Positions 60,052 through 64,000 of a stretch of DNA of 64,000 bases are shown here, piece after piece. The position numbers and the translations under genes were made by a program. The notes beneath the pieces are model-generated. The model was given only the letters and a program-made list of their open reading frames with translations. It made no database searches and was not told the DNA's origin. The stretch's first letter is position 1; each line of letters begins with the position of its first letter. Location: positions 1 through 64,000 of the forward strand of contig CALLMF010000010.1 of assembly GCA_938006335.1 (NCBI GenBank), given 5' to 3'. Source of the stretch: an uncultured Granulosicoccaceae bacterium (GTDB lineage: Bacteria; Pseudomonadota; Gammaproteobacteria; Granulosicoccales; Granulosicoccaceae).

Positions 60052-61851
60052 TTGCTCACCGAAAATGCCCGACGTTTTGCCGACCCGGCAACAGGCAAGC
60101 TCGACTTCGAGGCCATCCTTGATGGCCTGCTGATCGATGGCCTGGTTGAAGAGTCCTCGGTACAGCTGCTGCGATCCATCTCGCGCCAAGGGGCGAGCAA
60201 TGGCAGCTCCGGGCCGCTTGAGCGTATCGCCGCGAGTGGGTGGAAGTCAGCACGTGACCCCGAGCAGCCCATCAATCTCGACTTCCTGAGCCGATGGCTG
60301 GCGGACAAGGTGGCGTTGCCCTGGGTCCGTATCGATCCTCTGAATATCGATGTGACCGAAGTCACCAGCGTGATGTCGAGCGCGTATGCCACGCGCTTCA
60401 ATGTCATCTGTCTGGAGACCAGCAAGGATCATGTTCTGGTCGGAACCTGTGAGCCGTTTCATGAGGAATGGCAGCGCGAGTTGTCCAATGTCCTGCAGAA
60501 GGACATCAAGCTTGCGATCTGTAACCCGGAAGACATACGGCGCTATCTCGCAGAGCTGTATCAGATGTCCCGATCGGTGCTCAGCGCCAAGAAGGAACAC
60601 GCCAATCAATCGAGCGCGGTGCAGAACCTCGAACAGCTCATGCAGCTTGGGCGCGGTGGCAAGCTCGAGGCCAACGACAGCCATGTTGTCAGCATCGTCG
60701 ACTGGCTGCTGCAATACGCCTACGAACAGCGCGCCAGTGATATTCATGTCGAGCCGCGTCGCGAGACCGGCGCAGTACGTTTTCGTATCGATGGCGTGAT
60801 GCAACAGGTGTACGAGATGCCGTCCGCCGTCATGGGTGCGGTCACATCACGCTTGAAGATCCTCGGCCGGATGGATGTGGCTGAAAAACGCCGTCCACAG
60901 GACGGGCGCCTGAAGACCGTCAATGACCAGGGCAAGGAAGTCGAACTGCGTATCTCCACGATGCCTACCGCCTTCGGCGAAAAGATGGTGATGCGAATCT
61001 TCAACCCGGAAGTTCTCGTCAAGGACCAGAGCGCGCTCGGCTTCGAGGAGCAGGAGGCGGACACCTGGAACGGCATGATCCGGCAACCCAATGGCATCGT
61101 GCTGGTTACCGGTCCCACGGGTTCGGGCAAGACGACGACCTTGTATTCCTCCCTGCAGCTACTGGCCACGCCTGATGTCAACGTCTGCACGATCGAAGAC
61201 CCGATCGAGCTCGTTGTTCCTGCGTTCAATCAGATGCAGGTGCAACACAACATCGATCTGGACTTCGCGGCGGGTGTACGCACACTGCTGAGACAGGACC
61301 CCGACATCATCATGATCGGTGAGATACGTGACCAGGAAACGGCGCACATGGCGGTTCAGGCAGCGTTGACCGGTCACCTCGTACTTGCCACCCTGCACAC
61401 CAACGATGCGGCCTCGGCGGTAACCCGTCTGCTTGAGTTGGGTGTGCCGTACTACCTCATTCGATCCACGCTCATCGGCGTCATCGCGCAGCGCCTCATC
61501 CGTACCTACTGTCCGCATTGCGTGGAGACCGAGACTGCGGACAAGGAAGAATGGAACAGCTACATGGCGCCGTGGAAGGCGCCAGCACCAGAGGTTTTGC
61601 ACAAGGCTGCAGGTTGCCTTGAGTGCCGCGATACCGGGTTCCTGGGGAGAGCGGGCATCTATGAGCTGCTCAAGATGTCGCAGGCCACCAAGGATCTCGT
61701 GTTGCCGGACACCAACCTCGAGCTGCTTCGCAAGCAGGCCTTTCGTGATGGGATGCGACCCTTGCGGGTCAGTGGTCTGTCCAAGGTGGCTCAGGGCAAG
61801 ACGAGCTACACAGAGGTTCTGAAGGTCACGCCGGCACCTTTGATAGGCTAA
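60052..61851 (+). CDS. GspE/PilB-family assembly ATPase with zinc motif
   Basis: A 599 aa cytoplasmic ATPase. TTG 60052 is chosen because AAGGA lies 8 nt upstream; TTG 59983 lacks this. An N-terminal MshEN/T2SSE-N-like domain (about 60-190) precedes the ATPase core: Asp box VRFRIDGVMQQVYEM, Walker A GPTGSGKTTTLYSSL, DPIELVVPAFNQMQVQ, Walker B IIMIGEIRDQET and His box LATLHTND. The tetracysteine CPHC ... CLEC is present, unlike the ATPase at 33665. No pilus or secretion gene is adjacent, so it is an orphan. Confidence 0.9.
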   Translation: MLTENARRFADPATGKLDFEAILDGLLIDGLVEESSVQLLRSISRQGASNGSSGPLERIAASGWKSARDPEQPINLDFLSRWLADKVALPWVRIDPLNIDVTEVTSVMSSAYATRFNVICLETSKDHVLVGTCEPFHEEWQRELSNVLQKDIKLAICNPEDIRRYLAELYQMSRSVLSAKKEHANQSSAVQNLEQLMQLGRGGKLEANDSHVVSIVDWLLQYAYEQRASDIHVEPRRETGAVRFRIDGVMQQVYEMPSAVMGAVTSRLKILGRMDVAEKRRPQDGRLKTVNDQGKEVELRISTMPTAFGEKMVMRIFNPEVLVKDQSALGFEEQEADTWNGMIRQPNGIVLVTGPTGSGKTTTLYSSLQLLATPDVNVCTIEDPIELVVPAFNQMQVQHNIDLDFAAGVRTLLRQDPDIIMIGEIRDQETAHMAVQAALTGHLVLATLHTNDAASAVTRLLELGVPYYLIRSTLIGVIAQRLIRTYCPHCVETETADKEEWNSYMAPWKAPAPEVLHKAAGCLECRDTGFLGRAGIYELLKMSQATKDLVLPDTNLELLRKQAFRDGMRPLRVSGLSKVAQGKTSYTEVLKVTPAPLIG

Positions 61852-61895: not shown

Positions 61896-62927
61896 ATGAC
61901 AGTCAGACGCATCAATCTTGCGTTGCAGGGTGGCGGTGCGCATGGCGCGTTCACGTGGGGCGTACTGGATCGATTGCTCGTTGATGAGTCGTTGGAGATC
62001 GCTGCGATCTCGGGTGCCTCAGCGGGTGCGCTCAATGGTGCCGCATTGAAAGCAGGGCTGGTGCGAGGTGGACGTGAGGCGGCCAGGGAGAATCTCGCCT
62101 GGTTGTGGGAGAACGTGTCCAAGGTGTCGGACTTGCGCTTCAATCATTGGATGACGGCGCTGATGCCTGAGTCGATCGTGCATGCACTACAAGTGACACC
62201 CGCATTTTCTGCGATGGATTGGGCATCGCGAGTGTTCAGCCCCTACGACTATGGAGTGGCTTACCGCAACGCATTGGCGCCTGTTGTCGAGCACATGCGG
62301 TTTGACGAGATCTGCAGCGCGCAAGGCCCAGCACTGCATGTCTGTGCGACCAATGTGCGCACCGGAAAGATTCGCTTGTTTACCGGCGCCCAGATCTCCC
62401 CGAATGCCTTGCTCGCCTCCGCCTGCTTGCCGACCTTGTTCCGCGCTGTGGAGATCGAGGACCCCGAGACCGGCCGCATGGAGGCCTACTGGGATGGGGG
62501 GTATACCGGTAACCCGGCCCTGTTCCCCCTGTTTGATCCGTCACTGCCGGCTGATGTCGTGATCATCAACATCAATCCCCTGGAGCGGGAGCAGGTACCG
62601 ACCTCCGTACGAGACATCCAGAATCGCATCAACGAGATCAGCTTCAACACGAGTCTGCTGCGAGAACTTCGTGCGATAAATTTCGCTCAGCGACTACTTG
62701 CCGAGGGCTCCTTGACCGAAGGGGCGATGAAACAGGTGCTGGTACACATGATCGCTGACGATGCGCTCATGAACCGGCTGTCGGTCGAGAGCAAGTCGGT
62801 TCCCGTGCGGCGAATCATCGATGAGTTGTTCGAGGCAGGACGCCAGGCAGCCGACCGGTTCCTCGAGGCGCACTCGCACCGGATTGGTGTCGAGAGTTCC
62901 GCGGACTTGCGCGAGATGTTCGGCTGA
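61896..62927 (+). CDS. Patatin-like phospholipase
   Basis: A 343 aa lipid acyl hydrolase. The oxyanion-hole glycines (LALQGGGAHGAFTWGVLDRL), the nucleophile Ser in GASAGAL and the catalytic Asp in DGGYTGNPAL complete the Ser-Asp dyad. The C-terminal part is a helical cap with RELRAINFAQRLL. No signal peptide, so it is probably cytosolic or membrane-associated. It lies 44 nt after the ATPase gene on the same strand and may be cotranscribed. Confidence 0.92.
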   Translation: MTVRRINLALQGGGAHGAFTWGVLDRLLVDESLEIAAISGASAGALNGAALKAGLVRGGREAARENLAWLWENVSKVSDLRFNHWMTALMPESIVHALQVTPAFSAMDWASRVFSPYDYGVAYRNALAPVVEHMRFDEICSAQGPALHVCATNVRTGKIRLFTGAQISPNALLASACLPTLFRAVEIEDPETGRMEAYWDGGYTGNPALFPLFDPSLPADVVIININPLEREQVPTSVRDIQNRINEISFNTSLLRELRAINFAQRLLAEGSLTEGAMKQVLVHMIADDALMNRLSVESKSVPVRRIIDELFEAGRQAADRFLEAHSHRIGVESSADLREMFG

Positions 62928-63094
62928 TTCGGGTTGGGTTGAGTCACGGACGGTAAACCCCTCAATTTTTTGCCTGTCCGCATGTCGAATCTGGTGCTGC
63001 GATAGGCGCAAAGAGTGAGACTCAGTTCCGGAAAGTGTGAATATTCAGAAAATTCCTAGGAAAGTTGACGCAAGTTCTGTCTGCTTATGCCGTT
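62928..63094 (+). promoter_or_regulatory. Upstream region of the candidate small RNA
   Basis: No gene is seen here. It holds palindromes TTCCGGAA (63026-63033) and TGAATATTCA (63038-63047) and a TTGACG -35-like box (63065-63070) with a weak TATGCC (63086-63091). It may be the regulated promoter of the RNA that follows. No perfect GacA box was found. Confidence 0.4.
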
Positions 63095-63287
63095 CCTTCT
63101 TATATCGCCGAGACGGTGGTGAGTGGATACTTCCACTGCGCCAACGGATTGGCGCTGCGAACGGACGGCAGGAGCTGTTGCGCGAGACCAGGACTCGATT
63201 GGAAACGGACACCAATCGCTCGCGACGGTCGTTGTCAGGGAAGACAGGTAACCCCGGTTCGCGGAGGCGGGCCGGGGTAGCTTTTAA
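63095..63287 (+). ncRNA. Candidate CsrA/RsmA-sequestering small RNA (CsrB/RsmZ-like)
   Basis: No protein is supported here, yet the strand folds into consecutive hairpins: AGTGGA/TCCACT (63122-63137); GCGCCAA/TTGGCGC with a CGGA loop (63138-63155); ACGGC/GCTGT with an AGGA loop (63165-63178); CGATTGG/CCAATCG with an ACGGA loop (63196-63218); TGTC/GACA with an AGGGAA loop (63233-63246); and a terminator-like stem tipped by GGAG (63251-63278). About nine GGA triplets occur in 160 nt, five of them in loops. CsrB/RsmY/RsmZ-type RNAs bind CsrA through exactly such loops. Exact ends and expression are inferred. Confidence 0.6.
63251..63285 (+). terminator. Terminator-like hairpin of the candidate small RNA
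   Basis: ACCCCGG (63251-63257) pairs perfectly with CCGGGGT (63272-63278); the loop contains an inner CGC-GGAG-GCG hairpin. AGC and then TTTT follow. The strong stem and T-run suggest an intrinsic terminator, with a rather short T-run. Confidence 0.6.
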
Positions 63288-63368
63288 CGCAGTCGCCACG
63301 CTGCGCGTCATATGTGCCTCAGGCACACCTTCGATTCGGCATGCACGCCGTGCCGCCATACCCGGCCA

Positions 63369-63707
63369 ATGAGCCCCGACGCGGGAGTCACCTCTGACGT
63401 GTGTTCCCTGTCTTTACCCGGCAGGGCGGAGCTCTTTCGACTCTGGCTGAAGATCGCGCTTCTCTCATTCGGTGGGCCTGCCGCACAGATGGCGCTGCAT
63501 GTGTAGTTCTTGAGTGTCGTACGGGTGGACATGGGCTGGTCAAGCACCTGATATCCGATACTGTCCTCGATCAATCCGGTGACGGTAGTGCTGACGGGGC
63601 TGTGCGCTGTCACGGTCCCTATATTGCGATGGAATATGTTCGTCGTACTGGCTGCACCTGCCGGCATGGGGCTGATCATTGGTGTGGTCCCGGGCCCTGC
63701 ACCATAG
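63369..63707 (+). pseudogene. Chromate transporter (chrA) remnant with internal deletion
   Basis: From ATG 63369, 45 codons end in LFRLWLKIALLSFGGPAAQMAL, the first helix of a CHR-family chromate transporter, then a stop at 63504-63506. In another frame, 63552-63707 reads PVTVVLTGLCAVTVPILRWNMFVVLAAPAGMG-type hydrophobic sequence, similar in style to the last ChrA helix, and ends in TAG. An intact gene would need about 390 codons, so most of the middle is gone. The N-terminal match is fairly clear; the C-terminal part is a weaker call. Confidence 0.55.
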
Positions 63708-63741
63708 ACAGCGAATATCGCAATCGAGAGTACAAACGGAT

Positions 63742-63773
63742 ATGACGGTGTGGCATCAACCGGGCTCTATACT
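63742..63773 (+). promoter_or_regulatory. Possible promoter of the RND adaptor gene
   Basis: TATACT (63768-63773) is a good -10 box; ATGACG (63742-63747) lies 20 bp before it as a weak -35. The -10 ends only 6 nt before the ATG at 63780, and no Shine-Dalgarno sequence is seen, so a leaderless transcript is likely if this promoter is used. Confidence 0.4.
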
Positions 63774-63779
63774 CGGCGC

Positions 63780-64000
63780 ATGAAATCCTCGTGGCTCGCG
63801 GCGGCTGGCGTTACCTTGATCCTGGTCCTGTGGATGGCCAGTGGGTTGCTCAGTGGCAATGACGATCAGTCACCGGAAGACGCGTTTGCCAACAATGGAT
63901 CAGGTGCCGATACCTCGCTGATGAGGGTTGAGGTTCTGGTGGCCGAACCCATGATCGAGGAACGGACTCTCGAACTCCGTGGTGAGATATCGGCCGCCCG
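63780..64000 (+). CDS. RND efflux periplasmic adaptor (HlyD/MFP family), partial
   Basis: The gene runs off the window; 73 codons are visible from ATG 63780. An N-terminal membrane anchor or signal (SWLAAAGVTLILVLWMASGLL) is followed by an acidic linker and RVEVLVAEPMIEERTLELRGEISAA, the standard first beta strand of adaptor subunits before the biotinyl-lipoyl domain. Such proteins bridge an RND pump to an outer-membrane channel. The pump gene would be expected downstream. Confidence 0.78.
   Translation, partial: MKSSWLAAAGVTLILVLWMASGLLSGNDDQSPEDAFANNGSGADTSLMRVEVLVAEPMIEERTLELRGEISAA

Follow-up and report, generated by a model that had tools for sequence, protein, structure and literature searches.

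Based on its fold, its GGA accessibility and its conservation, the segment 63138–63285 on the + strand of the window (the whole 64,000-nt stretch of DNA analysed, from contig C10 of a 3.8-Mb genome of 66 contigs, G000) is very probably the gene of a CsrA-sequestering small RNA (sRNA) of the CsrB/RsmZ type, predicted to have its own promoter and to be under UvrY/GacA-type control. The first-pass annotation had placed a candidate of this type at 63095–63287; its reading is supported by GGA accessibility, compensatory changes in the relative G017, covariation of the first hairpin and the presence of csrA genes, and its borders are probably to be corrected to 63138–63285 (148 nt). The CsrA site is GGA in loops (PMC7652899), and sequestration of CsrA by such sRNAs is established (PMC7652899; PMC4682653). 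In the mechanism proposed, an untranslated sRNA would be transcribed from its own promoter with a start near 63138, and a UvrY/GacA-type response regulator at the upstream box would activate this transcription. About six unpaired GGA, as judged from structure prediction and conservation, would be presented in hairpin loops, several CsrA dimers would be bound by the RNA, and mRNAs repressed by CsrA would be freed from it. Such an RNA would extend the RNA branch of Gac/Csr regulation into Granulosicoccaceae, a family belonging to the Gammaproteobacteria.

Folding of 63138–63285 predicted four hairpins and a terminator-like stem, each with GGA in the loop, and an extra short stem around hairpins B and C. 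Hairpin A (63138–63155, GCGCCAACGGATTGGCGC) carries CGGA in its loop (63145–63148), and hairpin B (63165–63178, including one G-U pair) has an AGGA loop (63170–63173). Hairpin C (63181–63224) consists of an outer stem (63181–63186/63219–63224) with AGGA in a bulge and an inner stem (63196–63202/63212–63218) with CGGA in the loop (within 63203–63211), and hairpin D (63232–63247) displays an AGGGAA loop (63237–63242). The terminator-like stem (63251–63278) comprises 12 pairs and a GGAG loop (63263–63266), GGA being present in the terminator loop of several, not all, of the relatives as well; this stem is strong, yet the T-run that follows is short (TTTT, 63282–63285). The first-pass annotation had named the same five loop motifs at these positions, and all of them fell in loops in our fold; its five hairpins plus terminator stem were reduced to four plus the terminator, the earlier first hairpin probably being promoter. 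Folding, which it had suggested as a check, gave a minimum free energy (MFE) of −68.5 kcal/mol (z −3.48), with none of 200 shuffles as low, and the counterpart RNA of G017, a relative counted as the same genus, gave z −3.20, with 2 of 200 shuffles as low.

The stretch 63095–63137 with its first hairpin is probably promoter rather than RNA, because it contains a −10-like hexamer (GATACT, 63126–63131, + strand; start inferred near 63138) and because the alignment with relatives extends across the promoter as far as the hairpin at 63138. GATACT was found at the equal place in G017 and G027, and GATAAT in several of the relatives linked to dtd (see below). A consensus scan of 62500–64000 called neither promoter nor terminator, although the hexamer and the terminator-like stem are conserved in relatives.

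Neither the number of GGA nor the strict count of GGA hairpins is exceptional; the unpaired presentation of GGA is. Nine GGA are located within 63095–63287 and eight within 63138–63285. The earlier count of about nine was therefore correct, but the claim that this is several times more than chance was too strong, the number alone being modest: at least nine GGA occurred in 47 of 2000 mononucleotide shuffles of 63095–63287 and in 17 of 3191 overlapping + strand windows. A strict hairpin counter gave 3 non-overlapping GGA hairpins, a number reached by 75 of 1000 dinucleotide shuffles; this counter is not specific alone, since two unrelated loci (L091 and L097) gave 4 and 5 GGA hairpins without matching either of our covariance models, R1 and R2. 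The computed unpaired probability was at least 0.97 for 6 of the 8 GGA of the predicted RNA, and the summed GGA accessibility was 6.4, compared with a mean of 2.49 and a maximum of 5.05 in dinucleotide shuffles (0 of 300 reached it). The RNA of G017 gave a sum of 6.16, likewise reached by 0 of 300 shuffles. Several unpaired GGA in loops, a class feature of CsrA-sequestering sRNAs, are thus found in the predicted RNA; the antisense strand of 63138–63285 contains no GGA.

A DNA search of 57 genomes detected the window RNA in its own genome and in G017 only. The MAFFT alignment of window and G017 was almost gapless, with 114 of 196 columns identical (58%), and 7 of the 9 window GGA were at the same columns in G017, compared with 49 of all 192 trinucleotides. 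For the RNA alone, 7 of its 8 GGA were kept, versus 36 of 137 other trinucleotides (Fisher p 0.0009). An sRNA that base-pairs with mRNAs and does not titrate CsrA would also be structured and intergenic, as this RNA is, but the far stronger retention of loop GGA than of other trinucleotides makes that reading extremely improbable.

The stems of the predicted CsrA-sequestering RNA were compared pair by pair, a full-length structural comparison that rests on one close relative, G017: of 41 stem pairs, 27 were unchanged, 7 had changes at both positions, 5 had a change at one position and 2 were broken, as counted hairpin by hairpin after hairpin B and the outer stem of hairpin C had been shifted by one base manually. 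With the register so set, hairpin B had both-sided changes in 2 of 5 pairs and a one-sided change in 1, its AGGA being kept, and hairpin C (13 pairs; outer register by hand) had 2 double changes, 1 single change and 2 broken pairs. Hairpin D showed 1 double and 1 single change among 5 pairs with none broken, and all 12 pairs of the terminator-like stem were kept with 2 one-sided changes. The shifted stems appear disrupted in the raw alignment; unguided RNAalifold on the two sequences recovered A, D and the terminator and drew B and C otherwise. In the MFE structure of G017, hairpin C retained five outer-stem pairs, and its inner stem was changed. Both loop GGA and stems are conserved as structure, in the pair with G017 and, for hairpin A, over 10 loci. 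The alignment of homologous loci that had been recommended earlier thus revealed stems and GGA loops kept in G017 with compensatory changes, together with covariation of hairpin A over the 10 loci.

Two open frames overlap the region, encoding 71 aa (63065–63280) or 111 aa (63037–63372), so that a small protein gene had to be considered. Its probability is next to nil: in G017, all three forward frames of the aligned stretch are interrupted by one or more stops, single-base indels separate window and G017, and coding does not explain both-sided changes in the stems.

The order of features in the window is a secretion ATPase gene, a patatin gene, the predicted sRNA gene, a chrA remnant and a fusion-protein gene, all on the + strand. 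The Type II/IV secretion ATPase (T2SSE) gene (60163–61851; Pfam PF00437) is the upstream neighbour common to G017, in which the order is ATPase gene, RNA and fusion-protein gene (L006), so that the G017 RNA lies between the same two neighbours. The patatin-like phospholipase gene (61896–62927; Pfam PF01734) looks inserted, because it is absent at this place in G017 and its best relative there (46% identical) is on another contig. The chrA (chromate transporter) remnant (63312–63506) matched Pfam PF02417 at 17.4 bits (cut-off 28.6) over profile positions 2–24 only; the earlier placement of the RNA between a patatin gene and a chrA remnant agrees with these Pfam results, the PF02417 match being weak and below its cut-off. 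The start of an RND-type membrane fusion protein gene (63780–64000, running off the window end; Pfam HlyD_3/HlyD_D23) encodes a product 69% identical in G017.

Since this downstream fusion-protein gene is common to G017, the RNA may instead be considered a leader or attenuator that controls the downstream efflux genes in cis and is itself the target of CsrA. Such a leader is given a very small chance, as the strong terminator-like stem ends the RNA about 500 nt before the fusion-protein gene and the same design occurs at other loci in relatives. The secretion ATPase gene was present in 46 of 48 genomes, and 30 downstream loci were read (L028 and L040 being short at a contig end and L035 mis-framed); BLAST downstream of the ATPase gene found the RNA in its own genome and G017 only. 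A GGA-rich stretch at one of these loci (L021, in G023) was dropped, as it lies about 60 nt past a long frame, by eye a transposase, and matched neither R1 nor R2.

Upstream of the predicted sRNA, a palindrome-like box (ATTCAGAAAATTCCTAGG, 63043–63060, + strand; core TCAGAAAATTCCTA, 63045–63058) is proposed as a UvrY/GacA-type operator. The core or a close variant was found at the corresponding place in 10 aligned loci, in which the relatives have TC(A/G)GAANNTTCCTA or a similar sequence before a GGA-loop hairpin; the distance from box to GGA hairpin is 93 nt in the window and G017, compared with about 71 nt in the other relatives. The Legionella LetA consensus served as a comparison for this box. 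The strict GacA box, TGTAAGN6CTTACA according to PMC8523701 and PMC4682653, was not matched, the window box agreeing at 6 of 12 positions (background level) and the ten aligned loci at 6–9 of 12. Direct UvrY control of the window RNA is therefore a prediction. The 14-mer box is not specific alone, since its 26 sites, spread over 17 of 48 genomes, did not outnumber the 31 of a reversed control (summed from listed counts); at 8 of the 26 sites the next 306 nt contained at least 3 strict GGA hairpins, and two of these 8 sites were new (G019 and G027). The suggestion in the first-pass annotation that upstream palindromes hint at regulated transcription is supported, as the box is conserved before related RNAs, but the box of the window RNA does not match the strict GacA consensus.

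The window box lacks the ACA end that 7 of the 10 aligned loci keep; together with the short T-run and the nearby chrA remnant, this would fit a former Csr-type sRNA that is decaying or silent after patatin insertion upstream, with chrA debris downstream. We give decay a small chance, because the hairpins and 7 GGA are kept at 58% identity with compensatory changes and the fold remains as stable as its z-score indicates (−3.48).

A functional CsrA-sequestering RNA would act together with the Csr/Gac genes of the same genome. Four CsrA matches above the Pfam cut-off were found there, and the presence of csrA, which had been named earlier as a check, is confirmed by Pfam and NCBIfam. The CsrA proteins on contigs C7 and C2 passed both NCBIfam CsrA models and kept the VHREEIY stretch, the arginine of which we take to be an RNA-binding residue. 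Of the two CsrA-like proteins on contig C11, one passed one NCBIfam model narrowly and the other none. It was also noticed that these two diverged csrA-like genes lie close together beside a RadC-domain gene (L102, G000:C11, 1700–3712); the pair may belong to an accessory region that has CsrA variants of its own. A LuxR-type response regulator gene lies immediately upstream of uvrC, and a frame taken by eye for pgsA comes after uvrC; the same order of genes is found around gacA elsewhere. The best NCBIfam model for this regulator was UvrY/SirA/GacA (199 bits, below the cut-off of 280). Two hybrid kinases had BarA as best or second-best model, far below the cut-off, and neither was assigned as BarA/GacS.

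The RNA had been thought to be an unannotated family member, which holds for Rfam: PrrB/RsmZ (RF00166) matched in the window at only 17.8 bits against a cut-off of 44, and no family reached threshold. A genome scan with RF00166 under stricter filters gave no match in the own genome at E<=1, and Rfam on 20 member loci (E<=0.5) gave no Csr/Rsm family and only three unrelated sub-threshold matches. Over 48 genomes, RF00166 matched 14 times at E<=1, in 11 genomes and never above the cut-off, and 5 of 14 control genomes matched too. These matches were set aside as noise, 5 of the 14 loci having no GGA at all (three contig-end loci being counted over their whole length) and several being plain terminators; the best of them (G031, 1.8e-5) has no GGA, a likelier G031 RNA lying on its contig C4.

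Comparison with known systems revealed that 1) like PrrB/RsmZ of pseudomonads, the predicted RNA has a chain of GGA hairpins, a terminator and a similar length (model 133 positions), and its 5′ hairpin has ACGGAU (model UGUGcCCACGGAUAGGCACAG, window UGCGCCAACGGAUUGGCGCUG, the alignment starting at model position 1), whereas its middle hairpins were unaligned, GGA lies in its terminator loop and its genomic place is different, 2) like CsrB/CsrC of E. coli, it has several loop GGA, an upstream inverted-repeat-like box, and CsrA and a UvrY-like regulator in the genome, whereas it has no Rfam CsrB/CsrC match, the strict TGTAAGN6CTTACA box is absent from the window, and it is shorter, the CsrB of Marinomonas being counted over 456 nt (PMC8523701), and 3) a related RNA in G024 matched rsmX (RF02144) at 21.5 bits, below the cut-off of 56, whereas the window RNA gave no match and the G024 match did not recur at E<=0.5 in a larger search. 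CsrB/CsrC homologues occur in Marinomonas (PMC8523701). In the literature searched, no paper was found joining Granulosicoccus and CsrA, and neither Granulosicoccus nor dtd was mentioned among the matches listed. Current covariance models can miss such RNAs, in which the sequence turns over fast and the loop GGA persist.

Model R1, a covariance model of the window/G017 pair, was searched in 48 genomes and, beyond its own two, matched G024 (25.8 bits, E 1.7e-4); a match in G061 was rejected, being inside a coding frame and without loop GGA. In G024, two tandem RNAs of the same design were found (L105, 1064–1350 and 1468–1755), each with its own box and terminator-like stem, and DNA relatives of these occur in G018 (two, tandem), G011 and G023; weak DNA matches in G062 and G019:C44 were dropped, having no GGA hairpin chain by the strict counter. 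In a 10-locus alignment (A3), 59 of 60 cells of hairpin A were paired and 4 of its 6 pairs had changed on both sides, a number reached by 2 of 500 shuffles; the covariation score was 0.600, compared with 0.194 for shuffles, and 0 of 500 reached it.

Model R2, built from promoter and hairpin A only, gave 24 matches at E<1e-3, distributed over 15 of the 48 genomes, 10 being its own rows and 14 new. The 200 nt after the 14 new loci contained 2–5 GGA hairpins and 4–10 GGA, versus 0–1 GGA hairpins and 0–6 GGA in the 200 nt before them and 0–3 GGA on the other strand. R2 rows totalled 65, made up of the model's own 10, 32 read and 23 unread; the rows G025b, G008b, G027b and G033 look like chance. 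A scan for the conserved 3′ pattern returned 6 stretches in the genome collection, one being G017, and 1 in the viral collection; neither R1 nor R2 detected an RNA in the viral stretch or in the remaining five.

Of the 32 R2 rows read, 22 (from 21 genomes) have as neighbour an opposite-strand gene with the deacylase N-terminal motif, and 10 of the 14 strong new loci lie divergently beside a dtd-like gene. R2 matches beside the dtd-like motif thus occur in 21 of 48 genomes, some of them weak, and several dtd-linked rows (G007, G021 and G025 among them) have 0–1 strict GGA hairpins in the next 200 nt. Two tandem dtd-linked copies are present in G016:C85 (L161 and L179), the farther being counted among the 22. 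In the own genome, Pfam identifies the product of the neighbouring gene as D-Tyr-tRNA deacylase (177 bits), and the dtd-like genes outside this genome were named by the N-terminal motif alone. Among 18 read R2 rows, mostly dtd-linked, the best GacA-like site in the 100-nt promoter stretch scored 8 or 9 of 12 in 15, compared with 127 of 2000 random window stretches; this excess gives weak support, because base composition was unmatched and some best sites lie off the box. Of the 32 read rows, 11 carry a perfect palindrome, TAGGAAAATTCCTA, in their promoter stretch.

Divergent from dtd in the own genome, a candidate second RNA runs on the − strand of G000:C18 from about 30374 down to 30225 (L181, about 975 down to 826), with 7 GGA over roughly 154 nt, a 3′-terminal hairpin that has GGA in its loop and an R2 match of 17.2 bits (E 1.37). 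A similar candidate, with a weak R2 match (17.4 bits, E 1.22), is located on contig C11 of G017. From these sequence comparisons, the window RNA is probably one of at least two Csr-type RNAs in its genome, the other being that on C18. We lean towards the view that Granulosicoccaceae have a Csr sRNA set of their own that escapes Rfam, consisting of a dtd-divergent locus and copies at changing loci, including that of the window, and that a palindrome (TAGGAAAATTCCTA or a similar sequence) departing from the GacA box recurs in many of the promoters of these sRNAs, in which case UvrY would read a different operator. The divergent box would make co-evolution of UvrY and its operator testable, and the loci collected would suffice for building a new RNA family. 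It was also noticed that, in two stretches without the dtd motif (L175, G006:C292; L176, G001:C280), related RNAs have terminators with GGA in the loop.
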